A DNA stretch of 22,890 nucleotides from a virus. The stretch lies in the IMG/VR virus record IMGVR_UViG_3300037264_002542, positions 1 through 22,890 of that record. One strand, given 5' to 3'. Positions within the stretch are counted from its first letter, which is position 1. Each line of letters starts with the position of its first letter. Shown here in pieces: positions 1-22,890 of the stretch. The notes beneath the pieces were generated by a model, which was not told where the DNA came from, made no database searches, and saw only the letters and a program-made list of their open reading frames with translations. The translations under genes were made by a program, and so were the position numbers.

Positions 1-993
1 ACGTGGCAATCAAACGCATCGGTTTGGATTAGGGAGGGATTTCAACCTGTATTTATAGATATTAATTTAAATGATTTTTGTTTAGATTATACTAAATTAT
101 ATGAATATTTACAATCTAATAATAAAAAAATTGCATGTGTATTTCCAACTTCGGTGATTGGATTTATCCCAGATATGAATAAATTGGCTCAAATTTGTAA
201 AGATTTTAATGTTTGTCTTAAATTTGATAATTGTGAAAGTTTAATGCCCACATATACATCATTCTATTGTAAAACAAACCCTTCTGATTCTTCATATATA
301 GCCAATATTTGTAAAGAATTTACGTGTTCAACCTCCTGTTTTGTTGCTCATCAAATAACAACTGGAACGGAAGGTGGTTTTATTTTTACTAATTCCAAAG
401 AAGAATATCAATATTATTTAATGGCCCGCGCCCACGGTTTAATTAGAAACTTACAACCCTATAAAGAGCATTTTATTTCTAACGATTGGAATTTTAATTA
501 TGATTATGAACAGTTATGTAATCCACTAGTAGAATATCAATTTGATTTTAATGTTTTATCATCTAATTATAGAGGGAGCGACGTTTCTGCATTTTGCGGC
601 TTATTAGATTTTAAAAGAATTCATAGAAATAAATCTCACAGAATAAAAATATATAATTTATTTAAAAATAATTTAGATAAGTTAAGATACTATTTACCAC
701 AAAATAGAGATGGATATGAAGATGTTCCATTTTGTTTACCAATTATAGTTCGCGGAGAACATAGAGAAGAAAGACTACGAAAAGTAAAAGATTATTTAGA
801 CACACAAAAAATTGAAAAACGACCCTTTATATCAGGTAACATGTTACGTCAAAATAATTATCAACAATATGGTAACTATAAAGACTATGAAAATGCGGAA
901 ATATTAAATAATTTTGGTATTTACATTGGCCTGAATTCTAAAGTCACGGAAAAACAAGTTCTAAAATTAGTGGAAATCCTTAATAAAATTTAA
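1..993 (+). CDS. PLP-dependent sugar 3-dehydrase, ColD/RfbH type (5' partial)
   Basis: The frame is open from base 1, so the N-terminus lies outside the window; 330 residues are visible. It belongs to the DegT/DnrJ/EryC1/StrS aminotransferase fold family. Visible family marks are the start TWQSNASVWIREGFQPVFID, an Asp in KFDNCESL (about residue 76) in the place that contacts the PLP ring nitrogen, and the block STSCFVAHQITTGTEGG. In ordinary aminotransferases this block holds the Schiff-base lysine. Here it is His (about residue 117) in an AHQIT context, as in the 3-dehydrases ColD and RfbH (AHHIT), which use PLP or PMP without a lysine to remove the C3 hydroxyl of a 4-keto-6-deoxy sugar. The nearby GDP-mannose dehydratase gene supports a GDP-linked substrate (inference). 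The fold is confident; exact substrate is not. A GTG at 154 is internal, not the start. Confidence 0.8.
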   Translation, partial: TWQSNASVWIREGFQPVFIDINLNDFCLDYTKLYEYLQSNNKKIACVFPTSVIGFIPDMNKLAQICKDFNVCLKFDNCESLMPTYTSFYCKTNPSDSSYIANICKEFTCSTSCFVAHQITTGTEGGFIFTNSKEEYQYYLMARAHGLIRNLQPYKEHFISNDWNFNYDYEQLCNPLVEYQFDFNVLSSNYRGSDVSAFCGLLDFKRIHRNKSHRIKIYNLFKNNLDKLRYYLPQNRDGYEDVPFCLPIIVRGEHREERLRKVKDYLDTQKIEKRPFISGNMLRQNNYQQYGNYKDYENAEILNNFGIYIGLNSKVTEKQVLKLVEILNKI

Positions 994-1003
994 TATCATA
1001 GAT

Positions 1004-1363
1004 ATGCTAATAGACATTGAACCCGGTCAGGCTTTTGATATGTTGGCAATTATCAATATTAAAGTGAATGAATCTCATGGGTTATTAAAAGAAAAAAATA
1101 TTGCAAATTTTGAATCTCTTGCGACCCAAATAAAAAGGGAGATTGGGGAATTGAAATTTAATCAAGTATTTGAAAGTCCCGAATATGAGGAGTTGTATCA
1201 AAGTAATTTAGATACATTTAATTTGGTTACATTGGCCCAAAAAGACGACGGATTAGCTGGCCGTGTAGACCAGAAAAATTTTGATCGTTATGTTAAAAAA
1301 TCAATTTTACAGAAGAAATATTTTTACAAGGAGATTAAAGAAATAAAAATAGGATACAATTAA
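1004..1363 (+). CDS. Small protein of a nucleotide-sugar cluster, possibly DUF6165-like
   Basis: A 119-residue soluble protein starting at ATG, 10 bases after the dehydrase gene. It has no signal peptide or membrane segment. The N-terminus (IDIEPGQAFDMLAIINIKVN) resembles, from memory, the start of DUF6165 proteins (an acidic strand, a short turn and a helix with ILEIK-like residues), which occur near glycan and sugar-nucleotide genes. The rest is helical and charged. No catalytic motif is apparent. Its place between the dehydrase and Gmd genes suggests a shared sugar-modification operon. The family assignment is tentative and no function is claimed. Confidence 0.6.
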   Translation: MLIDIEPGQAFDMLAIINIKVNESHGLLKEKNIANFESLATQIKREIGELKFNQVFESPEYEELYQSNLDTFNLVTLAQKDDGLAGRVDQKNFDRYVKKSILQKKYFYKEIKEIKIGYN

Positions 1364-1375
1364 CGTGTAATTATT

Positions 1376-1564
1376 GTGGAAGAAGATGTAAATCTGGATA
1401 GATTCAAGTTTCGGCTTGAACCACAGTTTAACTATGCTCCCAAAGAAGATATTACAATTTTTGAACTTGCCCAATTAATAGTCATTTTACAACATAATGA
1501 TGGTTTTGAAATTGATGAATTGTCAGAAGATTTGAAGAGACATTTTAGACAAATAGATGAATAA
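1376..1564 (+). CDS. Small acidic hypothetical protein
   Basis: A 62-residue acidic protein (many Glu and Asp, e.g. EIDELSEDLKRHF) beginning at GTG; no ATG is available in frame. Its last codons overlap the ATG of the Gmd gene in an ATGAATAA junction (1557-1564), the same type of coupling seen across this operon, which supports it being translated. I do not recognise the family. No cysteine motif, membrane helix or signal peptide is visible. Confidence 0.55.
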   Translation: MEEDVNLDRFKFRLEPQFNYAPKEDITIFELAQLIVILQHNDGFEIDELSEDLKRHFRQIDE

Positions 1565-2609
1565 TAAGATTGCATGGATTTCGGGTGTAGGGATGGATTC
1601 AAAAACCTTAACCCACATCCTGTTATCTAAAAATTATAAAGTAATTCTTTCCCATAGAAGAAATACCGTTCTTGATACCTTACGGGTTCGTCAATTATTT
1701 ATTGATGACTTAATTAAATACCCAGAATCTTCATTAGAATTTGTTTATATGGATATTACAGATCAAACATCTGTAGAGGAAGCCGTCCTAGAAATTTTAA
1801 AAACAAATAATAAAATTGATGAGCTATATCATTTGGCTGGATTTACCCATGTGGGGGATAGTTTCAAAAATCCTATGTTATCCGTTATTACCAATGGTCA
1901 TAGTGCATATTTTATTCTAGAAGCATTAAGAAAGCATTCTAAAAGTACTAGATTTTATTTTGCGAATACTTCAGAATGTTTCGGGGGCGACCCAAAAAAT
2001 TGTCCATTCCAAGAAAATTCGCCCCAAGAATTACGAAGTCCTTATTCATTGGGAAAAAATTTAGGAGCCAATATAACAAAATATTTTCGTCAAACGTACG
2101 GCATGTATGCTTGTTTTGGATGGCTTTTCAATCATTCCAACATTTATCGTCACGATTCCTTCTATTTTATGAAGACTATTCGTGCCGCTGCTAAGATTTC
2201 ATTAGGAAAACAAAATGAATTAAAATTGGGTAGTCTTGATTTTTATAGAGACGAACATCTTTCAGACTTTGGGTGCGAAGTAATGTGGAAGATGCTAAAC
2301 AATAAGAAGGGGCCAATTAATTATGTGGTTGGTAACGGAAAATGTAATCATGGAGAGGAATATTTGGATTTGGCCTTTAATTATTTCAATTTAGATTGGA
2401 AAAAGTATGTTAAATTAGACGAATCATTTTTGCGACCCAATGAAGTAATAAAATTACAAGCAGATGCTACCAAAGCTATTGAAGATTTAGATTGGAAGCC
2501 TAATCGAATAACGTTAAAAGAACATGTTGACTTGGTATCAGATTATGTTTATAAACAAGAAACTGGAAAAAAATTAGATAGAATTAATCCATTTGAATTA
2601 TTCCCTTAA
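1557..2609 (+). CDS. gmd: GDP-mannose 4,6-dehydratase-like extended SDR
   Basis: A 350-residue extended short-chain dehydrogenase/reductase. GDP-mannose 4,6-dehydratases convert GDP-mannose to GDP-4-keto-6-deoxymannose using bound NADP(H). Family marks: ELYHLAGFTHVGDSFKNP (typically IYHLAAQSFVGDSFENP), FANTSECFGG giving the Ser/Thr and Glu140, and SPYSLGK with catalytic Tyr163 and Lys167. They continue with YGMYACFGWLFNH and LGSLDFYRDEHLSDFGCEVMWKML, which match the Gmd-specific ILFNH and [20 protein letters not shown] regions. Oddity: the N-terminal dinucleotide loop is SGVGMDSKT where family members usually have a loop like TGVTGQDGS, so the GxxGxxG spacing is altered and one residue is missing. 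Length is close to the family norm. It overlaps the preceding gene by 8 bases. Its product is the known substrate type of ColD-like enzymes such as the one encoded at 1-993. Confidence 0.85.
   Translation: MNNKIAWISGVGMDSKTLTHILLSKNYKVILSHRRNTVLDTLRVRQLFIDDLIKYPESSLEFVYMDITDQTSVEEAVLEILKTNNKIDELYHLAGFTHVGDSFKNPMLSVITNGHSAYFILEALRKHSKSTRFYFANTSECFGGDPKNCPFQENSPQELRSPYSLGKNLGANITKYFRQTYGMYACFGWLFNHSNIYRHDSFYFMKTIRAAAKISLGKQNELKLGSLDFYRDEHLSDFGCEVMWKMLNNKKGPINYVVGNGKCNHGEEYLDLAFNYFNLDWKKYVKLDESFLRPNEVIKLQADATKAIEDLDWKPNRITLKEHVDLVSDYVYKQETGKKLDRINPFELFP
2527..2555 (+). promoter_or_regulatory. Sigma70-like promoter inside the 3' end of gmd
   Basis: TTGACT, then a 17-base spacer, then TATAAA. It lies within the gmd coding sequence and ends 37 bases before the TTG start at 2593. 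The same -10-to-start distance (38-39 bases) is seen for the two clearer promoters at 20955 and 21544. Found by eye; a chance match in AT-rich sequence cannot be excluded. Confidence 0.45.
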
Positions 2610-10960: not shown

Positions 10961-11212
10961 ATGGTCATAGATGGAAAAATAATTATGCCGGGAATTGATA
11001 ATTTAAATGAATTGATCGAAAATATCGAAAAAGATGGTTTTAATTTTGTTCTCGGTATCGTAAAACCGGGACTAGTTAAAGATTCAGATATAATAGAAAT
11101 ATTTACCAATACTGGAGATGAGAGTTTAGAGAAATTACTAAGAGTATTAAGAGAACACCAAAAAAATCGCAAACAAAAAGAGAGGGGAGAAATAAAAATT
11201 GAATCTCAATAA
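10961..11212 (+). CDS. Small hypothetical protein
   Basis: An 83-residue protein starting at ATG 10961. The first half alternates strands and helices (DGKIIMPGIDNLNELIENIEK, then FNFVLGIVKPG), and the C-terminus is a charged helix (LEKLLRVLREHQKNRKQKERGEI). No motif is recognised. It ends 14 bases inside the PHP gene. The purine-rich string AGGGGAG near its 3' end is the Shine-Dalgarno sequence for that next gene, so both are probably translated from one message. Confidence 0.65.
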   Translation: MVIDGKIIMPGIDNLNELIENIEKDGFNFVLGIVKPGLVKDSDIIEIFTNTGDESLEKLLRVLREHQKNRKQKERGEIKIESQ

Positions 11213-11999
11213 TCAAATAATACCAATCTGGAAAACCCACGCAAGCGTCGGAAAAAGCATTTTAACTTATGAAGATGAAGAAGATATTTCTGATTCTGCC
11301 CCAGTAAGTGTTATTGCTATTGCAAAAAAACATAATTTAAAACAATTAATTGTTATTGATAATTCTTTCTTGGCTTTTCCTAATTTATATAAAGCCTGTA
11401 AAAAACATGAGATTCAATTAATCTTTGGACTGAATTTTACAATTTGTAATGATGTGGCTCAAAAAGATGAAGCATCTTTATCTAATAACTGTAGGGTTTC
11501 GGTTTTAATGAAAAATAGTAATGGATATAAAGATTTAATTAAATTAAACGACGCAATTAATGGAAGTTCTGAATCATTTTATTATACCCCAAGGGGAGAT
11601 TGGAATGTTATAAAGAAATACATGACAGATAATCTTCTTTTAATGATTCCTCCCCATAATAATTTTATTCATATTAATCTTTTAAGAAATGGAAAATCTA
11701 TTCCAGATTTTGGAAATTTAAAACCAATAATGACTTTTTGTAATATTGAATTACCTTATACTCAAATACTGAATCCTGCTATAAAAACTTATGCACAAAA
11801 TAATAATTTTGAATTACAGGAAGTTTGGCCCGTTTATTATTATAAGAAGGATGATTTTAAAGCTTATTCAACTTTTAGGGCTATACACGAAAGGGAAAAA
11901 TTTAATTCACCAAATATAGATTTTTTTACAAATCCAGAATTTTGTATTGAGTCATATTTAGAAAGATCAAATCTAAAAAATACTTTACTAAATCAGTAA
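11199..11999 (+). CDS. PHP domain of a family C DNA polymerase as a separate protein
   Basis: A 266-residue protein corresponding to the N-terminal PHP (polymerase and histidinol phosphatase) domain of DnaE/PolC. Landmarks: KTHASVGKSILTY where PHP begins (His14 matches the metal-binding His region HxHSxxS...L), then VSVIAIAKKHNLKQLIVIDN, then NLYKACKKHEIQLIFGLNFT, which correspond to the DnaE blocks ELVKRAKELG-ALAITDHG and YKACKKAGIKPIIGCE. The remaining DnaE domains are encoded downstream as separate proteins. The start is TTG, preceded by AGGGGAG 9 bases away; no ATG fits. PHP domains bind metals and sometimes have proofreading or pyrophosphatase activity. Several His ligands of the active form appear changed, so its activity is uncertain. 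Confidence 0.75.
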   Translation: MNLNNQIIPIWKTHASVGKSILTYEDEEDISDSAPVSVIAIAKKHNLKQLIVIDNSFLAFPNLYKACKKHEIQLIFGLNFTICNDVAQKDEASLSNNCRVSVLMKNSNGYKDLIKLNDAINGSSESFYYTPRGDWNVIKKYMTDNLLLMIPPHNNFIHINLLRNGKSIPDFGNLKPIMTFCNIELPYTQILNPAIKTYAQNNNFELQEVWPVYYYKKDDFKAYSTFRAIHEREKFNSPNIDFFTNPEFCIESYLERSNLKNTLLNQ

Positions 12000-12017: not shown

Positions 12018-12992
12018 ATGAATGTAAATAAAGTCAAAATTTGTAAAGATATTGAGGAAAATTACCACAAATATAGCGCTAAATACTTTTCTCAAAAATA
12101 TGGTTTAAATTTGTCCACCGTCTATAAATATGCTGGAAATCTAAGGGTCACTGGACATAATATATTAGAAAAACAATCTTTAAACATTATTTCAGACTTT
12201 AAGAAAGGTTATTCAATTTCTGAATTATATAATAAATATGGCCATACCAAAAAAACTCTTGAAGATTTTTTAATTAAACACGGATTTAAAATAAAAGATA
12301 TGTCAGAATCTAGAATTATTTATAATTTTAATATAAATTATTTTGAAAAAATTGATTCACATGAAAAAGCATACTGGTTAGGATTTCTATATGCAGATGG
12401 AAATGTTCATAAAAATATGATGCAAATTGGATTATCTAAAAAAGATGTAAAAATATTAAAAATTTTTAGAAAACATTTATCTTCAAATCATCCATTTTAT
12501 CTAGATAATAGTAAAGGATATAATAAAAATGGCAAAAATGTAATAAAATTTTGTATACGAAGTATGAAATTTGTTAAAGACTTAATAAATTTAGGTTGTA
12601 TTCCAAAGAAATCTTTAGTATTAACATTTCCTACTGTTCAACAAGTTCCAGAAGAATTTATAAATTCTTTTATTCTTGGTTATTTTGATGGAGACGGAAG
12701 CATATCCACCAAAAATAAAAAACACAAACAAAAGTTTTCGTGGAAATTACAAATGGTATCAACCAAACATTTTTTAGAAGGTGTTAGGGCTAGAATATCC
12801 AATATTACCAAAACAAATGGCTGCATTATAGAAGACAAAAAAACAAAAAATTTGTGTTATTTATCTTATGGAGGTTCATACAAAACAGATAATGGCAAAA
12901 TAGTTCCACGGCTTATTTATGATTTTTTCTATCATAATATTAATTTTGCCCTCAAACGTAAAGAATTAAAATTTAGGAGTATTATATCATAA
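12018..12992 (+). CDS. LAGLIDADG homing endonuclease gene
   Basis: A 324-residue double-motif LAGLIDADG endonuclease. The two catalytic helices are AYWLGFLYADGNV (about residues 118-130) and INSFILGYFDGDGSI (about 215-229), each with the acidic residue that coordinates Mg2+. The N-terminal 100 residues carry helix-turn-helix-like repeats (AKYFSQKYGLNLSTVYKYAG, ISELYNKYGHTKKTLEDFL) that probably bind DNA. It cuts a long recognition site and copies itself into unoccupied alleles. It stands free between the PHP and exonuclease genes, neither in an evident intron nor in an intein. A 7-bp inverted repeat, ACTAAAT-CAGTA-ATTTAGT (11987-12005), spans the upstream stop codon. Its insertion seems to have removed the usual start of the exonuclease gene. 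Confidence 0.85.
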   Translation: MNVNKVKICKDIEENYHKYSAKYFSQKYGLNLSTVYKYAGNLRVTGHNILEKQSLNIISDFKKGYSISELYNKYGHTKKTLEDFLIKHGFKIKDMSESRIIYNFNINYFEKIDSHEKAYWLGFLYADGNVHKNMMQIGLSKKDVKILKIFRKHLSSNHPFYLDNSKGYNKNGKNVIKFCIRSMKFVKDLINLGCIPKKSLVLTFPTVQQVPEEFINSFILGYFDGDGSISTKNKKHKQKFSWKLQMVSTKHFLEGVRARISNITKTNGCIIEDKKTKNLCYLSYGGSYKTDNGKIVPRLIYDFFYHNINFALKRKELKFRSIIS

Positions 12993-13627
12993 ATTCAGAT
13001 TTATTAAAATATAACTGGAAAGAAAAAACCTTTGTAGTTTTAGATTGTGAAAGCAACGGATTGCATCTTTTTTATACTCTACCCTTTAATATAGGAATTC
13101 AAGTTTATAAAAATGGAGAATTAACAGAAAATCATGATTTATATCTTAAATGGCCCAACTATCAAATTCGACCCGAAATTGCTAAATTTACCCATTATGA
13201 TGCGGCCAAAATAGAAAGAGAAGGAATCGAACCAAAAAAAGCATTTGAAATATTAAAATATTATTTAGACAATCCAAATATCTATTTTATTGGTAATAAT
13301 CTTCTTAATTACGATTGTATGATATTTAAAAATTCTCCCCAATTTGTTGGAGTTGATATAAGTTATCAGTGGTTGAATAGAACTTATGATAATAATGCTA
13401 TTTTTAAGGGTTACAAACTTGGATTAAAACCTGATTATGATAATTTTTTAGCTTGGCAATTTAGTATGAATTCTATAGTTAAAAAAGGACTTAAATCAAG
13501 ATTACAATTTGCTTGCAAAGAATTTGGAATAGAGTATATTGAAGAAGATGCCCATTCTGCTGCATATGATTGTAAAAAATCATATCAAGTTTTTACAGAA
13601 TTAATTAAAAAAATAGATGTTAAATAA
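12989..13627 (+). CDS. DnaQ-like 3'-5' exonuclease with apparent ATA start
   Basis: About 212 residues of DEDDh-type exonuclease: Exo I VVLDCESNGL (Asp19, Glu21), Exo II NNLLNYDCMIF (Asp109) and Exo III HSAAYDC (His189, Asp194). It would proofread for the polymerase encoded next (10-base overlap). In frame upstream of the first TTG (13061) there is no ATG, GTG, TTG or CTG, yet Exo I lies there, so a start at 13061 would delete the catalytic DxE. The frame is open back to 12977. AGGAG at 12975-12979 points to ATC 12986 or ATA 12989. ATA overlaps the upstream stop as ATAA, resembling the ATGA overlaps elsewhere; I use 12989. Alternatives are a -1 frameshift from the homing endonuclease gene or a base error. 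Confidence 0.75.
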   Translation: MNSDLLKYNWKEKTFVVLDCESNGLHLFYTLPFNIGIQVYKNGELTENHDLYLKWPNYQIRPEIAKFTHYDAAKIEREGIEPKKAFEILKYYLDNPNIYFIGNNLLNYDCMIFKNSPQFVGVDISYQWLNRTYDNNAIFKGYKLGLKPDYDNFLAWQFSMNSIVKKGLKSRLQFACKEFGIEYIEEDAHSAAYDCKKSYQVFTELIKKIDVK

Positions 13628-16600
13628 TTTTACCACATACGATTTACCCAAATTTGGTTATATCAAAATTCCCAAATTTACAATTCCAGATGAAGATAGG
13701 AAAAATCTAAATTTATCTTCCAAATGTAATTCTGAAGAATATCTTTTGGCTTTAGCAAAAGATGGATTTAATAAGAAATTGGAATCAGGAAAAATTCCAA
13801 AAGATAAAAAACATACCTATTGGGAGCGAATTAGTAATGAATTAGAAGAAATAAATAAACTTCTTTTTACTGATTATATATTGCTTGTTTATCATATTAT
13901 TAAGTTTTGTGATAAAAATGGTATATTAAATTCTCCGGGAAGAGGGTCGTGCGGAGGTTCTTTACTTCTTTATGTCTTAGGCGTTGTAAAAATTGACGCA
14001 CTAAAACACAATCTTCTTTTTGAAAGGTTTATTGCTGGTGGACGAACAGAAATTAAAGAAATCAATGGAGAAAAATATATTAAATCGGAAAATTTACCAG
14101 ATGTAGATTTGGATTCAGATAGAGAATTAAAATACAAAATTAATGAATTTATTACCTCTCAATTTCCAAATAGAACATGTCAAATTAAAACAGTGGGAAC
14201 ATTACAAGGAAAATCAGTTATAAAAGAAGTATTAAAATGTTATGAAGAATATAATGAAGAAGATGCCAAAGAAATCAGTGATTTAATTGAAACCAGATTT
14301 GGTAAAGTAGAACAGATTACCAATGCTATATCTGATGACCCAGAAAAAGAAAATAAAAAATTTAAAGAATGGGCAAAAAATCATCTTGATACCGTTAAAA
14401 TTAGCTGTCAATTAAATACATTAATAAAAAATACTTCAGTTCATGCTTCAGGAATTATTTTATGTGAAGAAGAACTAAATAATAGTATTCCATTAGAATT
14501 ATCCTCAACCAGAGAACCAGTTATTTCTTATGATATGGAAGGGGCACAATGTTTTGGTGTTAAATTAGATAATTTGGGATTAAAAAATCTTACATCAATT
14601 AAAGAATGTCTTGGTTTAGTAAATAAAAAAATGGAAGATATTGATGTAAATGATGAATCTATTTATATTTTTTTAAGGAATAGCGATGATTATCGGGGCA
14701 TTTTTCAAGCTGAAGAAGGATTAGGGAAGATGGTAATGAGGAAATTGCAATGCAAAAATATTGATGATATTGGAATGAGTATAAGTATTGGAAGGCCGGG
14801 TAGCATGAAATTCTTAGATGAAATTATCAATGCAAGAGATGGGGCGGAAATTAGAAAGATTGATGATAGGGTGAAAGATATTCTTTCTCCCACTTATAAT
14901 GTAATTATTTATCAGGAGCAAATTATGGCCCTCGCCAGAAGAATGGCAAATTTTACATCACAAGAATCTGATGGGTTAAGAAAATGTGTTTCAGGAGATA
15001 CAACTTTCATTTCTAAAACAAGAGGAATTATTTCCATTCATTCTTTAATTAAGAATGGATTTAAAGACGATTTATTTCTTGTAATGGATGATAGAGGAAG
15101 ACAATTGTGGAAACCTATTAAAAATATCTGGCTTTCCGGTAACAAAGTGGTAAAAAGAGTTACCACTAGAAACGGTTTAAACATAAAAACTACTGGAGAA
15201 CATCAGTTTCTTACTAATGACTGGTGGAAAGCTAGAAAATATCTAGATATTAATAATGATTATTTGGTATGTGCTAAAGAAATAGAATATGATGGTGAGG
15301 ATAAAATTTCAGTAGATATGGCAATTGTTATCGCTGGTTTATTAACAGAAGGATTCTTTACTGAAACGGGTCAAACTTTTACTAATTTTAATAAATTTGT
15401 TATAGATATATTCTGTCAATCATTTTTTAATGAATTTGGCAAATATCCATCTCTATCTAAAGATGGTCATGTAGCCAGAATAGATAAGGAGTCTAAGGAA
15501 ATAATCCATAAATATCTATCTTATGGTAAATCAGGACAAAAATTTATTCCAGAGATAATGATGGGGATGACTAAGGAAACGACTAGAAAATTCTTATCTT
15601 TTATGTTGACTTGTGAGGGAGGCTGCATAGAACAGGGTAAATTTGAAATATCTTCAAAATCTATTACTATGGCAAACCAGATAAAGTTATTATTGTTGAG
15701 ATTTGGTGTCAGAAGTTGTTTTTTTAGCAAAATCAATCCTAAATACGGAGAATTTTATTATATTAACATTGGTGAGCGAGACTCGCTAGAGCGACTAGTT
15801 TCTGAACTGTCAGTTCTTTTAGAGCCAGATAAATTAAAAAAATTAAATTTGTATATCAAAAACAAGATTGGTAACTGCACTTTAGATATTATTCCGAATA
15901 ATATTACCCAAAAGTTTATTAAACAATATACCGCTGGTAAAGATGTAGATAGGAGTGGGAGCTTATATAAATCAACAGTATCTAGAGATAGATTTTATGA
16001 ATTAGTTTCTTGGACTAATGACCAATATTGGATAGATATTGCGACTGGAAAGCAAGAATACTCATCAATTAAAGATATTTATCGCTCTTATCCAGATATG
16101 GAAGATGTATATGACTTTACAATAGATGAAGAGACTCCATTTATTATTGCCAATGGAATAGTAATACATAATTGTATTGGGAAAAAACTTAAAGATAAAA
16201 TAGTTGAACATAAAGAAAGATTTATAGAAAACTCTCTTAAAAATAAATATGAAGAAGAGTTTGTTTTAGATATGTGGCAAACATTTGAAATGAGTGGAGA
16301 TTATTTATTCAATAAATCACACGGATATCAATATGGCTACCTATCAGCTATTTGTGCTTATCTTAAAGCCAACTATCCAACAGAATATTTTTATTCTTTA
16401 TTAAAAAATGCCAAAAATGAATCTAAACCACAAGAAGAAATATCTTTAATTACTGAAGAATTATCTAGATTTGGAGTTAAATTACTTGGTCCACATATTA
16501 TTAAATCAGATGTTGATTTTAAAATTGAAGATAAAAATAATGTTCGTATGGGATTGGGGAATGTCAAAGGAATTGCAGATAAATCATTAGAAAAACTAAA

Positions 16601-17402
16601 AAATTTCTGTCATGCTTATTCTAATAAATTTGAAATATTTTTGGCTGCAAATGAGTGTGGAATTGGAATTGGTATTTTAGGCAATTTAATTTTGGCGGGC
16701 ACAATGGATGATTATTTAACTGAAACCAGAACTCAGACATGTTTAGAAATGCAAACTTGGAATTTATTAACCGAAAGAGAGCAAAAAAGAGTTTTACAAT
16801 TAGGGGAAGAATATAAATATCATTTAATTAACATAATAAAATATCTCTCTGTTCCACAGGATAGTTCTGATAAACCATTTATAAAAGAAAGCAGATTAGA
16901 AACTATTAGAAGAGATTTTAAACCATATAATAAAATCCATAAACAAAATAGTCAAAATGAAGAATTGTGCCGATTTTGGTTTGAAAAAAGTCTTTTGGGA
17001 TTTTCTTATTCTCATAATCTTGTTGACATTTTAAGAAAAGAATATAATGATATAGTTAGTATTGAGGCGGCAATGGCCGAAATTGATGACGAAAAAGTAA
17101 CAATCGGGGGCGAAATAATTGAAATTCGATCTGGAACAAGTAAAAATAAAAATAAATACATTAAATGTTTAATTACGGACGGTAATAAATCAGTTAATGT
17201 TATGATTATGGAAAGATATTTTGAATCAAATAATGAAAAGAATAAAAATCATAAATTAGAAATAGGAGATATTGTGGTTGCAACTGGACAAAAAAAACCT
17301 GACATTGTTTTCTGTGACCAAATTGTAACACAAAATATTAAAATTATTTCCCGAATTTCTGATTTACCAAAAGAAAAGTTAGAAAATTTTGTCGGTCGCT
17401 GA
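13617..17402 (+). CDS. dnaE-like: Family C DNA polymerase core (DnaE-like) with intein
   Basis: A 1261-residue reading frame: extein residues 1-456 and 853-1261 (865 residues after splicing) flank an intein. The polymerase lacks the PHP domain (separate gene at 11199) and starts near the palm. Palm marks: NSPGRGSCGGSLLLYVLG (the GxGRGSxxGS element) and LPDVDLDSD (161-168), whose Asp164 and Asp166 match the two catalytic Asp of PDFDVDF. SVHASGI and the fingers GIFQAEEGLGKMVMRKL, YNVIIYQEQIMALAR and FNKSHGYQYGYLSAICAYLKANYPTEYF segments match DnaE. The C-terminal OB-fold region (VTIGGEIIEIRSGTSKNKNKY) is present. The ATG overlaps the exonuclease stop. The last codons resemble an attC arm (see findings). 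The spliced length is short for DnaE (about 1160) because the PHP part is split off. Confidence 0.9.
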   Translation: MLNNFTTYDLPKFGYIKIPKFTIPDEDRKNLNLSSKCNSEEYLLALAKDGFNKKLESGKIPKDKKHTYWERISNELEEINKLLFTDYILLVYHIIKFCDKNGILNSPGRGSCGGSLLLYVLGVVKIDALKHNLLFERFIAGGRTEIKEINGEKYIKSENLPDVDLDSDRELKYKINEFITSQFPNRTCQIKTVGTLQGKSVIKEVLKCYEEYNEEDAKEISDLIETRFGKVEQITNAISDDPEKENKKFKEWAKNHLDTVKISCQLNTLIKNTSVHASGIILCEEELNNSIPLELSSTREPVISYDMEGAQCFGVKLDNLGLKNLTSIKECLGLVNKKMEDIDVNDESIYIFLRNSDDYRGIFQAEEGLGKMVMRKLQCKNIDDIGMSISIGRPGSMKFLDEIINARDGAEIRKIDDRVKDILSPTYNVIIYQEQIMALARRMANFTSQESDGLRKCVSGDTTFISKTRGIISIHSLIKNGFKDDLFLVMDDRGRQLWKPIKNIWLSGNKVVKRVTTRNGLNIKTTGEHQFLTNDWWKARKYLDINNDYLVCAKEIEYDGEDKISVDMAIVIAGLLTEGFFTETGQTFTNFNKFVIDIFCQSFFNEFGKYPSLSKDGHVARIDKESKEIIHKYLSYGKSGQKFIPEIMMGMTKETTRKFLSFMLTCEGGCIEQGKFEISSKSITMANQIKLLLLRFGVRSCFFSKINPKYGEFYYINIGERDSLERLVSELSVLLEPDKLKKLNLYIKNKIGNCTLDIIPNNITQKFIKQYTAGKDVDRSGSLYKSTVSRDRFYELVSWTNDQYWIDIATGKQEYSSIKDIYRSYPDMEDVYDFTIDEETPFIIANGIVIHNCIGKKLKDKIVEHKERFIENSLKNKYEEEFVLDMWQTFEMSGDYLFNKSHGYQYGYLSAICAYLKANYPTEYFYSLLKNAKNESKPQEEISLITEELSRFGVKLLGPHIIKSDVDFKIEDKNNVRMGLGNVKGIADKSLEKLKNFCHAYSNKFEIFLAANECGIGIGILGNLILAGTMDDYLTETRTQTCLEMQTWNLLTEREQKRVLQLGEEYKYHLINIIKYLSVPQDSSDKPFIKESRLETIRRDFKPYNKIHKQNSQNEELCRFWFEKSLLGFSYSHNLVDILRKEYNDIVSIEAAMAEIDDEKVTIGGEIIEIRSGTSKNKNKYIKCLITDGNKSVNVMIMERYFESNNEKNKNHKLEIGDIVVATGQKKPDIVFCDQIVTQNIKIISRISDLPKEKLENFVGR
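14985..16172 (+). mobile_element. Intein with LAGLIDADG endonuclease in the polymerase
   Basis: A 396-residue intein, residues 457-852 of the precursor. Block A is CVSGDTTFIS, with Cys1. Block B contains TTGEHQF (the TxxH motif). Endonuclease motifs are IVIAGLLTEGFF and FLSFMLTCEGGC. Block F is VYDFTIDEETPF, and block G is ANGIVIHN, followed by the +1 extein residue Cys. After splicing the extein reads GLRKCIGKKLKDKI, the expected continuous polymerase sequence at this position. All key splicing residues (Cys1, block B His, terminal His-Asn, Cys+1) are present, so it is probably active. The two endonuclease motifs have acidic residues (Glu) compatible with activity. Confidence 0.9.
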
Positions 17403-17409
17403 GAATTAA

Positions 17410-17547
17410 TTAGTTCAACAACCCAATTTTGATGCTAAATCATTTCTAACACATTTACGAGATGAGGAACAAGAAATGAGTAATAAGGTAACTCTGGCGA
17501 AGGATATTATTAAGCAGATAATTTCAGAGGTCGAAGGTTATACTTGA
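17410..17547 (+). pseudogene. Small ORF or gene remnant before the cassette array
   Basis: A short frame without a good start: LVQQPNFDAKSFLTHLRDEE, continuing to QEMSNKVTLAKDII and ending EVEGYT, 45 residues. An ATG with GAGG 9 bases upstream at 17476 would give only 23 residues. Composition looks like a protein rather than a random frame, so it may be the truncated 3' end of a phage gene or of the first cassette gene. The following bases 17548-17641 are AT-rich and show no ORF, promoter or terminator. This interval marks the unresolved left edge of the array. Confidence 0.3.
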
Positions 17548-17641
17548 AACATTTCATTATTTTTTTGTGGAGTAATTTTCTAAGCCTTTTCTTTTTCACA
17601 ACCCCATTTACCCGTTATTTAGTCAATTGTGAAATCGAGTC

Positions 17642-17771
17642 GTCTAACAAGGCGCTGGAGCGAACTGGCCTAGACTTTTGGATTTTTCGTGATTCGGGCG
17701 GTTGAGTATTGTGGGTGTTTCCGACGATTCTGGTAATTTACCGGCCAGTCGCTCAGCTTGGGTCGTTAGGC
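17642..17771 (+). repeat. attC site 1 (130 bp)
   Basis: R'' GTCTAAC; left arm CTGGAGCGAACTGGCC; right arm GGCCAGTCGCTCAGC; R' GTTAGGC. Type A attC, very similar to site 3. The cassette to its left has no identifiable left end. Confidence 0.9.
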
Positions 17772-17812
17772 GTCAACGATCTTCACAATTATATCATTCT
17801 TAGTGTAAAAAA

Positions 17813-17917
17813 TGTAACTTGACGGAAAACACTCTGTTTGCTAGAGGTTAGCTGAAGTTTTTGGTTTAAGGTATCCCGGTAGGACTATCTCCCACAGAGT
17901 AAAACCGTCAAATTACA
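17813..17917 (+). ncRNA. Imperfect long inverted repeat in an ORF-less cassette, candidate structured RNA
   Basis: The cassette between sites 1 and 2 (17766-18119) has no ORF on either strand. It contains a stem: TGTAACTTGACGG pairs with CCGTCAAATTACA with one C/A mismatch. Then AAAAC opposes AAAA as an internal loop, and ACTCTGT pairs with ACAGAGT. This gives 19 pairs in arms of 25 and 24 bases around a 56-base loop. The loop contains a small GCTA/TAGC hairpin. Because DNA is palindromic the strand is not determined. It may be a structured RNA, a small inverted-repeat mobile element, or a regulatory palindrome. Nothing else is seen in the rest of the cassette. Confidence 0.5.
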
Positions 17918-18015
17918 GTCTTACTCTATACAACCTATACCAAAGAATCAAGAGTTGTTCTTATCTTTCTATCAGTAATTATAATTGAATTAGATTATTT
18001 ATTCCAAGACCGGAC

Positions 18016-18125
18016 GCCTAACCATGCGCTCCAGCGAACCGGCGCAAGCTCTTGATGTTCAGAGGGGTTGGACATATTTATCCCCCTGATTTTCCGCGCC
18101 GGTCGCTGAGCTTGGGTCGTTAGGT
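18016..18125 (+). repeat. attC site 2 (110 bp)
   Basis: R'' GCCTAAC; left arm GCTCCAGCGAACCGGCGC; right arm GCGCCGGTCGCTGAGC; R' GTTAGGT. Type B attC, nearly the same sequence as site 5. GACGCCTAAC pairs with the start of its cassette GTTAGGCGTC. Confidence 0.9.
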
Positions 18126-18250
18126 GTCATTGGACGCTCTATGATAAATCCATATTTTTCTAATTCTTCTACACTATTAATAAAAATGCCCGTGAATTTC
18201 TTACCATGAGTTTTTTTATACCATTTCTTGAATTTCTTGTCTGACCACAT
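18059..18250 (-). CDS. Small hypothetical protein, reverse-oriented cassette gene
   Basis: A - strand frame starting at ATG 18248-18250 and reading leftward through the cassette start into attC site 2. The first 41 residues (MWSDKKFKKWYKKTHGKKFT, GIFINSVEELEKYGFIIERP) lie in cassette sequence; the last 22 (MTPNDPSSATGAENQGDKYV) are encoded by the attC and are probably just a tail. It is basic, lacks a membrane segment and belongs to no family I recognise. It diverges from the 18275 gene with a 24-base gap, so the two starts could share a promoter region. A reverse gene inside a cassette needs its own promoter. Confidence 0.4.
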   Translation of the reverse strand: MWSDKKFKKWYKKTHGKKFTGIFINSVEELEKYGFIIERPMTPNDPSSATGAENQGDKYVQPL

Positions 18251-18274
18251 ATATCCTATATTACACTCAATATT

Positions 18275-18589
18275 ATGGAACTACATCGTAATAATCAGTT
18301 GTTTTGTAATGTTTTAAGAGCTTGGAATATCAAAACAGCGAAAGTTAATTCTAAAAGAATAAACATGTTAGGTTCACCAAGTGTAGAGATTCGGAAATAT
18401 TCACATAGAATGATTTGTGACAAGAAACCATTTGTTAAGGATATATTAGGAACAATATTAATTGATGAGAAAGGCACTAAGACTTCCATCGAACCAGTAA
18501 AGATTATTTCTGAGACTAAGGAAGAAGATGGTTCTATTTTATATGAGGTTGAATTTTTAGCTTCAAAGATTATTGATTTTGACACCTAA
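18275..18589 (+). CDS. Hypothetical cassette protein
   Basis: A 104-residue protein starting at ATG and ending TAA inside the R'' box of attC site 3, the expected position for a cassette gene. The sequence is beta-rich (MICDKKPFVKDILGTILIDE, then TSIEPVKIISETKEEDGSI, then YEVEFLASKI), with no signal peptide, membrane helix or cysteine motif. I do not recognise the family. It and the reverse gene at 18059 start back to back within the same cassette. Confidence 0.75.
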   Translation: MELHRNNQLFCNVLRAWNIKTAKVNSKRINMLGSPSVEIRKYSHRMICDKKPFVKDILGTILIDEKGTKTSIEPVKIISETKEEDGSILYEVEFLASKIIDFDT

Positions 18590-18715
18590 CAAGAGCGCTG
18601 GAGCGAACTGGCCTAGGCTTTTGGAGTATTGGGAGATTTTGGTGGGCGGGCGATTTCTGAACTGTTGAACGGTTTTGGTTGTTTTCCGGCCAGTCGCTCA
18701 GCTTGAACGTTAGAC
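18584..18715 (+). repeat. attC site 3 (132 bp)
   Basis: R'' ACCTAAC; left arm CTGGAGCGAACTGGCC; right arm GGCCAGTCGCTCAGC; R' GTTAGAC. Type A. The right part lacks the GGGTC spacer of the others (GCTTGAACGTTAGAC). Confidence 0.9.
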
Positions 18716-18742
18716 TTCCCCACCTACATCACCTATAAAACT

Positions 18743-18946
18743 ATGAAAATTACAGACTATCATGAAAAAGATGGAGATATTGAGTTCTTGGTAGATACCG
18801 AAAAGTTACACGCTATCCACCAACATCTAAGATCCAAAAGACTCAATGCGGGAGCAATTCCTTCAGATACGGATTTTAGTAAGATTACCGTAGGAAATAT
18901 TACACCTGAACAACTGAATCAGGCATTGGAAGACTTCCCAGACTAA
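18743..18946 (+). CDS. Small acidic cassette protein
   Basis: A 67-residue protein starting at ATG 27 bases after attC site 3. It reads MKITDYHEKDGDIEFLVDTE, with HLRSKRLNAGAIP and an acidic end (PEQLNQALEDFPD). No family is recognised. Unlike the other + strand cassette genes, it does not end in the next R'' box: 187 bases remain before site 4, and most of them lie in a - strand frame that overlaps its 3' end by 47 bases. Confidence 0.6.
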   Translation: MKITDYHEKDGDIEFLVDTEKLHAIHQHLRSKRLNAGAIPSDTDFSKITVGNITPEQLNQALEDFPD

Positions 18947-19142
18947 ATCTAATTTGTTGAGTTGGTTTTATTCCACCGTTGTCTTTGATAAGTTTGTTAA
19001 CGGCAAGGGTGTAAAAATCAAGACGAGCAATCAAATCTTTTTCGCCGGTAACTTCATCTATGAATGAGTTTGAATTTATGTCTATTAAATATGCGTGAAG
19101 TTTTTGATTTTCGGGTGGATATTTATCAGGGAAGTCTAACAA
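18900..19142 (-). CDS. Hypothetical cassette protein, reverse-oriented
   Basis: A - strand frame of about 80 residues beginning at TTG (19140-19142) at the R'' end of attC site 4 and stopping inside the 18743 gene. The protein (LDFPDKYPPENQKLHAYLID, then FIDEVTGEKDLIARLDFYTL, then AVNKLIKDNGGIKPTQQI) has ordinary composition and a helix-rich pattern, better than a random shadow. No ATG is available outside the attC; a frame from 19193 would translate attC sequence and is unlikely to be the native start. The convergent overlap means this gene or the + gene may be miscalled. Function unknown. Confidence 0.4.
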   Translation of the reverse strand: MLDFPDKYPPENQKLHAYLIDINSNSFIDEVTGEKDLIARLDFYTLAVNKLIKDNGGIKPTQQIRFSLGSLPMPDSVVQV

Positions 19143-19262
19143 TGCGCTGCACCGAACTGGCTTGAGCGCAGGTGATTTCGATGTCTTTTTCATATCTATG
19201 ATAACTGGTTATCCGACGTTTTTACACTTTTTTCGCCAGTCGGTGAGCTTGGGTCGTTAGGT
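19134..19262 (+). repeat. attC site 4 (129 bp)
   Basis: R'' GTCTAAC; left arm GCACCGAACTGGC; right arm GCCAGTCGGTGAGC; R' GTTAGGT. Type C, resembling site 8 (shared CATATCTATG and TTTTTCGCC segments). The L boxes have compensating changes: CACCGA with TCGGTG in place of CAGCGA with TCGCTG. Confidence 0.9.
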
Positions 19263-19287
19263 GTCATATCGCACGCCCCTGTAAAAT

Positions 19288-19722
19288 ATGGACGAAAAGA
19301 CACTAAAGAAAGCGGCAGCTTGGATGTATAAGAACCGGCATACGGGCTATTGGACTTATCTGATACTGGTAGCTGAAATTTCTGACCATCAAGAGATACG
19401 CAGTTTATCATTGTCCCAGGACGACGCCAGTGAAGTCTTCGCAACCCTAGAAAAAAAAGGATGTTTGAGAAAGGAGGATGGAGAGATAACCATCGGTGGA
19501 GCTTCTTTCCAAAAGTATCGCATTGATCACTCTGCCCTTCGAGAATTAAAAAAGTTTTCAGAGATTCCTTGGTATTACTTTCTTCCTGAATCTTGGATTT
19601 ATTACATTGAGAAGTATTGGGCATGGTTTGTTGTATGTCTTGCGCTGATTATTACCTCATTCTTTCAGGGATTCGTTGGGAAGTTGGGAGAGTGGATTGG
19701 CGAATGTTTGACTGGAAAATGA
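19288..19722 (+). CDS. Cassette protein with winged-helix-like head and one membrane helix
   Basis: A 144-residue protein. Residues 1-85 are charged and helical, with DDASEVFATLEKKGCLRKED followed by GEITIGGASFQKYRI, a pattern like a small winged-helix domain. Near the C-terminus WAWFVVCLALIITSFFQGF is a probable single transmembrane helix, after an aromatic stretch (WYYFLPESWIYYIEKYW). The stop TGA lies just before attC site 5, and the gene follows site 4 closely, as expected for a single-gene cassette. It may couple a regulatory head to the membrane (inference). No family is recognised. Confidence 0.75.
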   Translation: MDEKTLKKAAAWMYKNRHTGYWTYLILVAEISDHQEIRSLSLSQDDASEVFATLEKKGCLRKEDGEITIGGASFQKYRIDHSALRELKKFSEIPWYYFLPESWIYYIEKYWAWFVVCLALIITSFFQGFVGKLGEWIGECLTGK

Positions 19723-19723
19723 C

Positions 19724-19833
19724 ACCTAACCAAGCGCTCCAGCGAACCGGCGCAAGCTCTTGATTTTCAGGAGGTTTAGACATGTTTACCTCTCTCCTTT
19801 TCCGCGCCGGTCGCTGAGCTTGGGTCGTTAGGC
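19724..19833 (+). repeat. attC site 5 (110 bp)
   Basis: R'' ACCTAAC; left arm GCTCCAGCGAACCGGCGC; right arm GCGCCGGTCGCTGAGC; R' GTTAGGC. Type B, near-identical to site 2. ATGACACCTAAC pairs over 12 bases with the start of its cassette, GTTAGGTGTCAT. Confidence 0.9.
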
Positions 19834-19890
19834 GAATTCGGAGCATCTTGTGGACTTGATTGTTTTTCATGTTGCGTATCTTTAATTTGT

Positions 19891-19976
19891 CACAAGACCA
19901 ACCTTGTGAGCGTTGATGGACTGAAGACTTGTCCTAAGCGTGGAGTCGTGCGTTAACACGACTCCCTTTTTATTTT
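19891..19976 (+). ncRNA. Candidate small RNA with intrinsic terminator
   Basis: No protein frame fits here. On the + strand three hairpins follow one another: CACAAG/CTTGTG with a 6-base loop (19891-19908), GGAC/GTCC (19918-19934), and a 9-bp terminator stem with a T run. The start is not defined. Possible -35 TTGATT (19856) and -10 TTTAAT (19881) are 19 bases apart, which is weak. Together they suggest a short RNA transcribed from within the cassette. Confidence 0.35.
19942..19976 (+). terminator. Intrinsic terminator
   Basis: A perfect 9-bp stem, GGAGTCGTG / CACGACTCC, with loop CGTTAA, followed by CTTTTTATTTT. This is the strongest hairpin-plus-T-run in the window. It lies 6 bases upstream of the tRNA-like gene. 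Confidence 0.8.
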
Positions 19977-19982
19977 CGGAGA

Positions 19983-20069
19983 GGTTGGGATTGTTGTTGG
20001 CGGAACTAGGGCGTCTTAAAAACGCCCACCCGTTAACGCGGGTTGAGAGTTCGATTCTCTCCCCAACCG
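19983..20069 (+). tRNA. tRNA-Leu(UAA)-like, class II, atypical D arm and discriminator
   Basis: 87 bases fold as a class II tRNA. Acceptor GGTTGGG/CCCAACC (7 bp); anticodon stem GGCGT/ACGCC around loop CTTAAAA, giving anticodon UAA; variable arm ACCCG/CGGGT with a 6-base loop; T arm GAGAG-TTCGATT-CTCTC. No CCA is encoded. The D arm is odd: at best GTT/AAC with loop GTTGGCGG, lacking the usual GGTAGACGC segment of bacterial tRNA-Leu. Position 73 is G, where bacterial tRNA-Leu has A (G is serine-like). GGAG/CTCC outside the acceptor could extend the stem in the precursor. It lies inside an integron cassette. It may be functional, diverged or decaying. Confidence 0.7.
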
Positions 20070-20091
20070 CTCCTAAATTATATGAAAATCC

Positions 20092-20153
20092 GCCTAACCA
20101 TGCGCTCCAGCGAACCGACGCAAGCTTGGGGTTTTCAGGAGGTTTAGACATGT
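20092..20153 (+). repeat. attC site 6, left half only
   Basis: R'' GCCTAAC and left arm GCTCCAGCGAACCG match type B sites 2 and 5 up to TTTAGACATGT. After 20153 the sequence departs from them, and no right arm or R' box follows. CGCCTAAC still pairs with the start of its cassette (GTTAGGCG), showing the cassette was once complete. Confidence 0.8.
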
Positions 20154-20173
20154 AGAAAAATTATTATGAAAGC

Positions 20174-20350
20174 TTAATGGGACTGGCAAATCATTCCATA
20201 GAGACACGCGGCAAAAACTACAGCAAGATACAGACACAAGAGCCAATCACTCTTTTGAAGGGTCAAGATTGTGCTGAAAACCTTGCCAATATTTGTCTGT
20301 TTATATCTGCATTGGGATTGGTGTTGACGATTTTGATATGAAAAATTGCG
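20174..20350 (-). pseudogene. Reverse-oriented membrane-protein remnant
   Basis: A - strand frame, without start codon in the cassette, ends NIGKVFSTILTLQKSDWLLC, then LYLAVVFAACLYGMICQSH and a stop. DWLLCLYLAVVFAACLYGMI looks like a membrane helix. The longer open frame to 20863 passes through attC 7 and is not a gene. The cassette's expected left end (GTTAGGCCGCAA) is absent because of the deletion that removed half of site 6, so only a fragment remains. On the + strand the same stretch has no convincing gene. Confidence 0.3.
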
Positions 20351-20483
20351 GCCTAACCATACGCTGGAGCGAACCGGAGCATCGTTTTCAGATTTCTGAA
20401 CATCGCTGGCTTCGTTTGCGTTTGGGGATTGGGTTAAGTTTTCGGGTGTTTTTTGCTCCGGTCGCTCAGCTTGGTCGTTAGGC
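20351..20483 (+). repeat. attC site 7 (133 bp)
   Basis: R'' GCCTAAC; left arm GCTGGAGCGAACCGGAGC; right arm GCTCCGGTCGCTCAGC; R' GTTAGGC. Related to type A. The spacer before R' is GGTC instead of GGGTC. Confidence 0.9.
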
Positions 20484-20502
20484 GTTGTCCGTTTTATATT
20501 AT

Positions 20503-20808
20503 ATGGATATCCCAATCTATTTAAGAAAATCCGAAACAGAGATGGTGAAGCTTCATTGTATTGCGGAGTTAATTCAGGAGACAACCAACCACGTAACTTT
20601 CCACGCCCTAGAATATCTCTCAGTTGATTTGCATTCACATTATTATTGTAAGCGTAAAGGAGTAAGGGGGACGCTGGAACTATGGTTGATTGAATTTGTC
20701 GCTGCCACGGAAATGAAGCCGCCATATACTTATATCTCAACATTGACAGAAAAATACAGAGACGTACCAGAGGACTGGGTTGATGATTCTCCCAGTCAGA
20801 ACGCCTAA
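20503..20808 (+). CDS. Hypothetical cassette protein
   Basis: A 101-residue protein (ATG 20503; an in-frame TTG at 20485 would start inside the R' region of site 7 and is less likely). It ends TAA within the R'' box of site 8, the standard cassette layout. It starts MDIPIYLRKSETEMVKLHCI and includes TFHALEYLSVDLHSHYYCKR and an acidic end. There is no signal peptide or membrane helix. Two Cys and several His residues do not form a clear metal motif. Family not recognised. Confidence 0.7.
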   Translation: MDIPIYLRKSETEMVKLHCIAELIQETTNHVTFHALEYLSVDLHSHYYCKRKGVRGTLELWLIEFVAATEMKPPYTYISTLTEKYRDVPEDWVDDSPSQNA

Positions 20809-20933
20809 CCATGCGCTCCAGCGAACCGGCTTGAGCTTTGGTGTTTTCGGTGTTATTACTCATATCTATGGTAACGGGTTGTGCGAAAGATTTACACTAT
20901 TTTTCGCCGGTCGCTGAGCTTGGGTCGTTAGAA
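20803..20933 (+). repeat. attC site 8 (131 bp), last site of the array
   Basis: R'' GCCTAAC; left arm GCTCCAGCGAACCGGC; right arm GCCGGTCGCTGAGC; right end GTTAGAA, which departs from GTTRRRY in its last base and runs into AT-rich phage-like sequence. Type C, like site 4. It marks the right junction. Confidence 0.85.
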
Positions 20934-20954
20934 AAAGATTTCTGAAAATTCCCC

Positions 20955-22293: not shown

Positions 22294-22328
22294 AGCTAGG
22301 AAGAGATTTCTTTCTGGCTTTTTTGTTT
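22294..22328 (+). terminator. Intrinsic terminator after the SSB-like gene
   Basis: Stem AGCTAGGAAG / CTTTCTGGCT (10 pairs, two of them G-U) with loop AGATTT, followed by a run of T bases. It lies 52 bases after the SSB-like stop and between convergent genes; on the - strand the T run is weaker. Confidence 0.75.
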
Positions 22329-22890
22329 AATATTGGGCATTTTTAATTACATCTTTAATAATTATGATTGCCTTGTCTAATTCTATTTTAATTTTATCTT
22401 TTTGTTTTTGATTATAAAAATTAGTTTTGTGTCTTAAATGGTTAATAAGTCTTAAAAATTTACGAAATTTACGTTTTAGTAAAAATCTTGCATTTTTATA
22501 GACACAATTAAAAAAGATTAATGCATTTAAGAGTCCTGAAATTCTTAATACAATATTTCCATTTTTCATTCTTCCATCATCTAATATGGTAGATTCTATA
22601 TTTATTTTTTGTTTTAATAGTTCTTTTAAATAATTTATAAATGGCTTCGTTCCAATCACATTTAAAGAAAATCTCATAGTTGTATTGTCGTTATACATAG
22701 AATAAGAAACCGTTCCATCTCCTTCGTAGAAAGAGCGTATATAATGTGGAATTAAATCATCCGGTAAATATACTGGAAATTCTAGATTATTGGTTTTGTT
22801 ATTGTCTATTTTTAATTTTAAAAGAGAATTAGTTATGTTTTGATGATAAATAACAAGACCCCATCTATTTTGGTAGGTTTTTGTTGATTT
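22327..22890 (-). CDS. LAGLIDADG homing endonuclease, partial
   Basis: The - strand frame is open from the right edge (22890) to a stop at 22327-22329; 187 residues are visible, with the N-terminus outside. DDLIPHYIRSFYEGDGTVSY contains one LAGLIDADG catalytic helix (YIRSFYEGDGTVS), and the following SLNVIGTKPFINYLKELLKQ agrees with this family. An ATG at 22698 is internal and would remove the catalytic motif. It resembles the double-motif gene at 12018 in layout, with the first motif presumably upstream of the window. It is the only phage-region gene on the - strand. Confidence 0.75.
   Translation of the reverse strand, partial: KSTKTYQNRWGLVIYHQNITNSLLKLKIDNNKTNNLEFPVYLPDDLIPHYIRSFYEGDGTVSYSMYNDNTTMRFSLNVIGTKPFINYLKELLKQKINIESTILDDGRMKNGNIVLRISGLLNALIFFNCVYKNARFLLKRKFRKFLRLINHLRHKTNFYNQKQKDKIKIELDKAIIIIKDVIKNAQY

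Follow-up and report, generated by a model that had tools for sequence, protein, structure and literature searches.

Integron cassettes within a phage replication locus

The window analysed here, 22,890 nucleotides in length, is the whole of the IMG/VR record IMGVR_UViG_3300037264_002542; it is linear and probably a fragment of a larger genome. Matches to PHROG families were found for a ligase, UvsX, DnaB, an exonuclease, a methyltransferase and DNA polymerase III alpha, and PHROG-matched phage replication genes surround an array of integron cassettes (Table 1), for which the initial annotation had correctly given the coordinates 17642–20933. On the left the array is preceded by the polymerase gene, whose product (DnaE) contains an intein with a LAGLIDADG domain at approximately residues 464–854 (Pfam Intein_splicing and LAGLIDADG_3). 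On the right it is followed by a promoter-like site, a small ORF and the gene for a putative single-stranded DNA-binding protein (SSB). The array thus lies inside the replication locus of a phage and has phage genes on either side, as had been proposed. The family C polymerase reported for the left flank was recovered, whereas the SSB reported for the right flank is putative only: it matched the NCBIfam SSB model at just E=0.07 and had no match in PHROG or Pfam, its position is conserved in a related phage, and its acidic tail ends in DF.

This related phage, G005 (IMGVR_UViG_3300046778_000197; 51,734 bases), is syntenic with the window for UvsX, DnaB, exonucleases, a PHP protein, DnaE, the 58-aa ORF and the putative SSB, at ~27–54% identity; the intein is absent from its DnaE. 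No terminase or tail genes were seen in the 22.9-kb window. Since G005, with which the window is syntenic, encodes terminase, tape measure and tail fibre proteins, we assign the window, on gene content and order, to a tailed phage genome. The possibility raised beforehand that the replicon might prove to be a bacterial chromosome was rejected on the same synteny, the replicon being that of a phage. Viral scans with the N-terminal part of DnaE, its C-terminal part, the SSB, the PHP protein and the exonuclease, five in all, returned no close syntenic relative beyond G005.

Table 1. Features of the cassette array and its immediate surroundings; positions are those of the window.
Feature	Position	Strand	Remarks
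DNA polymerase III alpha (family C) core	13617..17402	+	phrog_405, E=1e-143; Pfam DNA_pol3_alpha, finger
Left flank	17403..17640	.	32% GC, without long ORF
attC1	17641..17773	+	complete
Cassette 2	17766..18119	+	ORF-less; structured RNA candidate ~17810-17920
attC2	18013..18127	+	complete
Cassette 3	18120..18709	+	ORF 18275-18589 (104 aa); reverse ORF ~18120-18250; known family not found
attC3	18583..18719	+	complete
Cassette 4	18710..19256	+	ORF 18743-18946 (67 aa); reverse ORF 18900-19193
attC4	19134..19263	+	complete
Cassette 5	19257..19827	+	ORF 19288-19722 (144 aa); known family not found
attC5	19723..19835	+	complete
Cassette 6	19828..20155	+	ORF-less; terminator-like hairpin 19942-19965, tRNA-like gene 19983-20070, truncated attC
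attC6	20089-~20155	+	truncated, only R'/L' half; fused to cassette 7
Cassette 7 remainder	20156..20477	+	5' end lost along with truncated attC6
attC7	20350..20485	+	complete
Cassette 8	20478..20927	+	ORF ~20485-20808 (107 aa from TTG, 99 aa from ATG)
attC8	20803..20935	+	complete; array right edge
Promoter-like site of downstream phage operon	20955..20983	+	TTGACA-17-TATTAT
58-aa phage ORF	21022..21198	+	first gene right of array; 43% over 51 aa to G005 gene directly after DnaE
Putative phage SSB	21612..22241	+	209 aa; 50% identical to G005 counterpart

Anatomy of the attC sites and absence of an integrase

Seven complete attC sites are packed within 3.3 kb, all in the same orientation. The earlier claim was of eight sites whose R and L boxes were correct; seven of these are complete, while the remaining one, attC6, is truncated to its R'/L' half and aligns to attC5 over 61 nt. 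The complete sites display matching R'/R'' and L'/L'' boxes, two extrahelical bases and compensatory changes in the L arms, examples being the pairs CTGGAGCG/CGCTCAG, CTCCAGCG/CGCTGAG and CTGCACCG/CGGTGAG. Known attC sites carry unpaired arm bases in fixed positions, and in the consensus bottom-strand hairpin of the array two unpaired L-arm bases occupy identical positions across the sites. The sites belong to mixed subfamilies, with 52–87% identity among them.

The L'' arm GCTTGGGTCGTTAG occurs five times in the window with three mismatches or fewer, compared with a mean of 0.5, and never five, in shuffles; the R'-L' pattern likewise occurs five times in the window and not once in shuffles. 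In the bottom-strand fold 97.3% of cells are paired and five pairs show double changes. The covariation score of 0.204 was reached by none of 500 shuffles (mean 0.079), and sliding the alignment gave scores of 0.00–0.08, with a maximum of 0.077. A covariance model built from the bottom strand of the seven complete sites scored these sites at 113–128 bits, which is high by construction, and the truncated attC6 at 16 bits. Judged by these features of structure and covariation, the attC sites of the array are genuine.

Searches for the integron integrase IntI (TIGR02249) and for tyrosine recombinases (PF00589) were empty for both the window (22.9 kb) and G005 (51.7 kb), with control genomes scoring positive, and no intI gene adjoins the array in either phage; the initial annotation was therefore right that the record holds no integrase. 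A complete integron comprises an intI gene and an attI site; with no match to TIGR02249 or PF00589, the record does not qualify as one. What was found is seven complete attC sites in close succession, where two would suffice for a cluster; they carry R'/R'' and L'/L'' boxes, form bottom-strand hairpins with extrahelical bases and lack an integron integrase. On its sequence, the array classifies as a CALIN (cluster of attC sites lacking an integrase), carried by a tailed phage genome.

Cassette boundaries and contents

In six cassettes both ends are retained, and the comparison of start and end was restricted to these. Complementarity extends over 10, 11, 12, 12, 8 and 10 nt in cassettes 2, 3, 4, 5, 6 and 8, respectively, and just two of the 720 start-end pairings, the true one counted, are as good as the true one. 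The array therefore consists of real cassette units running in one direction, in agreement with the earlier observation that cassette ends are complementary beyond the R boxes.

The cassettes encode small proteins or, in two cases, contain no ORF. The RNA candidate of cassette 2 is predicted to adopt a nested multi-branched fold (-29.4 kcal/mol, z -2.0). Cassette 6 contains a tRNA-Leu(UAA)-like gene with a long variable arm, an extended acceptor stem and a non-standard discriminator, for which the best Rfam match was tRNA-Sec, below threshold; apart from this match, the cassette RNAs were assigned to no Rfam family. Among 39 other attC loci none had a tRNA within a cassette, the lone tRNA (at locus L058) lying outside its attC cluster. 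The product of the cassette 5 ORF has a hydrophobic segment close to its C terminus. Searches with the cassette ORFs (104, 67, 144 and ~100 aa) gave nothing above noise in Pfam, PHROGs, NCBIfam, PADLOC, plasmids and phages, nor did searches of the PDB with two of the cassette proteins or of 388 Verrucomicrobiota genomes with the cassette proteins. The array DNA matched no phage in the searched collection, and no donor array emerged, the cassette proteins being without relatives in the searched sets. The GC content of the array (37–45%) is well above that of the phage (~28–30%), and that of the cassette gene parts ranges from 30 to 46%.

A related phage with an empty site and a cassette elsewhere

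In G005, TTGACA lies within ~10 nt of the dnaE stop codon and is followed by the 58-aa ORF, with no array between. Since the array of the window separates two genes that are adjacent in G005, it is an insertion; the empty site of G005 is too diverged to display the insertion target. G005 carries a single cassette of its own (19126–19692; a 90-aa ORF), flanked by two attC sites, at a locus other than that of the window. The ends of this cassette, AAATCACCTAAC and GTTAGGTGATTT, show perfect complementarity over 12 nt. Cassettes at different loci in the two phages, together with one empty locus, point to gains that occurred separately within one lineage, and not to one relic inherited by both.

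The two arrays share the sequence at their right edges. In the window this edge is CG|TTAGAAAAAG, with the crossover expected after G20927; in G005 it is CG|TTAGAAATTT and reads CTTGGGTCGTTAGAAA, so that CG|TTAGAAA is common to both. The right-edge motif GTTAGAAA is just 8 nt long and represented by two cases. In G005 the R' box of the outer attC, TTTTCTAAC, matches it over these 8 nt, five of which are common to all sites; no such match was seen in the window. The left junction of the window has no cassette start, that is, no GTTAGACGAC matching the R' box of attC1. The left flank may be either phage intergenic DNA or the decayed body of a first cassette, and G005 has no similar stretch before its next promoter.

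Distribution of the attC type

A 22-nt attC arm pattern was scanned against one genome per species, and the resulting loci, not genomes, were counted by hand; among the matches listed, 63 of 80 loci carry Verrucomicrobiota names. In the three Verrucomicrobiota-labelled genomes examined, an IntI gene adjoins such attC sites. A survey with the attC model on a sample of ~100 genomes per phylum gave 6/96 for Verrucomicrobiota and 5/99 for Acidobacteriota and so does not separate the phyla; a more specific attC pattern matched no genome. Because of this survey result, Verrucomicrobiota are a likely but not proved source of the attC sites, as judged from arm sequences.

Other IMG/VR contigs carry the same attC arm. 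Two of them (G012 and G015) have an attC in the neighbourhood of terminase or portal genes, and in a small contig (L165) one adjoins a large ORF that is putatively portal-like. Two further IMG/VR contigs with this attC type, G001 and G009, encode an IntI scoring above the cut-off; the loci on these two (L022 and L023), both listed in IMG/VR, apparently represent the same complete integron, with an integrase and ten attC sites. Three IMG/VR contigs (L007, L009 and L015) have attC sites with identical scores and probably share one cassette array.

Origin of the array

Capture by a host integrase, which the initial annotation had put forward, is the simplest explanation for an array without an integrase in the record. 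We consider it probable (roughly 0.7) that a host integron integrase, acting in trans, inserted the cassettes into the phage genome and so gave rise to the phage CALIN. The infected host would have had an integron in its chromosome, probably of Verrucomicrobiota type, and the IntI of this host would recombine cassettes, as folded attC bottom strands, into the replicating phage DNA. Entry would have occurred at a secondary G|TT target downstream of dnaE and ahead of the promoter that serves the operon of the small ORF and SSB; further cassettes may have arrived through attC × attC recombination, and one attC would later have been damaged by deletion. Once in place, the cassettes would be phage cargo, expressed either by transcription running in the direction of the replication genes or from promoters of their own, and host integrons could take them back. 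We infer the agency of host IntI, the attG-like entry, the host phylum, the expression and the onward transfer from the evidence at hand, and insertion in trans is supported by the attC anatomy, the complementarity of cassette ends, the phage flanks, the empty site in G005 and the contrast in GC content. With respect to attG-like insertion, the right edge fits G|TT and the left edge lacks a cassette start, so that insertion by IntI is unproved at the left end.

For the same reason, the main rival is a route without integrase, in which part of a host cassette array was gained en bloc by illegitimate or homologous recombination and the attC sites are passengers. The truncation of one attC would suit such an event, and Qi et al. 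raised recombination that is illegitimate or off-target as a possible route to phage CALINs. Block pickup nevertheless seems unlikely to us: the mixed attC subfamilies fit serial capture rather than the gain of one block, and the two related phages have their cassettes at distinct places, with G005 carrying a single in-register unit. Insertion by a host IntI is favoured because the right edges fall exactly at the G|TT crossover in both phages and because the single cassette of G005 is in register.

The GC content of the array, so far above that of the phage, is what one might see if a bacterial array had been joined to phage contigs during assembly, as the initial annotation had warned for the array edges. 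Such a chimera is most improbable, given that the genes flanking the array are adjacent in G005, which shows insertion between neighbouring phage genes and would require two false joins at exact syntenic points, and that G005 independently holds a cassette whose attC sites are of the same type. Equally slight is the chance that the array belongs to a complete phage integron whose integrase gene lies apart from it elsewhere in the genome: the window is a linear fragment, the G005 record is also a fragment and IntI is present on G001 and G009, yet there is no tyrosine recombinase in the window or in 51.7 kb of G005, and the arrays stand without an adjoining intI.

Beyond insertion in trans by a host IntI, a more speculative and on balance doubtful suggestion is that the phage lineage exploits host integrons to gain genes, with resident attC sites serving as landing pads at which host IntI would repeatedly load and exchange cassettes, RNA-only ones included, on replicating phage DNA. 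This is hinted at by the outer attC of G005, whose R' box matches the right edge as if one attC had predated the cassette.

Comparison with known systems

The initial annotation had implied that a cassette array on a phage would be new; CALINs on the virulent phages TJE1, P12002L and PH101 have, however, already been published, and phage attC sites recombine with attI1 via IntI1, five of the six tested being recombinogenic (Qi et al. 2023, PMC9892861). Like these, the array described here lacks an integrase and lies in a phage genome, with cassettes and their attC sites in the same direction, as in TJE1 and PH101. It differs in its seven to eight attC sites, whose type occurs most often, among the matches listed, in genomes labelled Verrucomicrobiota, in having a phage relative that is empty at the homologous site and holds an array at another locus, and in including cassettes without ORFs, among them the one bearing the tRNA-like gene. 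With the chromosomal integrons of Verrucomicrobiota it shares the attC arm sequences (the 63 of 80 loci among the matches listed), whereas it resides on a phage, has few cassettes and is without intI and, apparently, attI. Insertion of cassettes by IntI at attG sites has been reported (Loot et al. 2024, as described in papers citing it); as far as that description goes, the array resembles attG insertions in having cassettes at a non-integron locus and a G|TT right edge, and differs in that the target is a phage rather than a bacterial chromosome and that one edge fits. New here are the fact that two related phages carry separate insertions, each at its own locus, the homologue with an empty site, the attC type and the ORF-less cassettes.

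Such viruses seem to acquire and carry bacterial integron genes. If the attC sites work, phages might shuttle integron cassettes from one bacterium to another, as the initial annotation had suggested, and could themselves borrow bacterial accessory genes. With separate gains in one lineage, it becomes possible to test how often, and by what mechanism, phages capture cassettes.

Other features of the phage genomes

The replicative polymerase is apparently split into a PHP-like protein, an exonuclease and the polymerase core (11199–11999, 13061–13627 and 13617–17402), and the genes are arranged alike in G005. Endonuclease genes of one family lie at 12018–12992 (phrog_4645) and, on the minus strand, at 22327–22890, with several paralogues in G005; these are probably free-standing homing endonucleases at differing positions. 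The first 2609 nucleotides of the window (1–2609) contain aminotransferase and GDP-mannose 4,6-dehydratase-like genes, that is, sugar-nucleotide genes in a phage.
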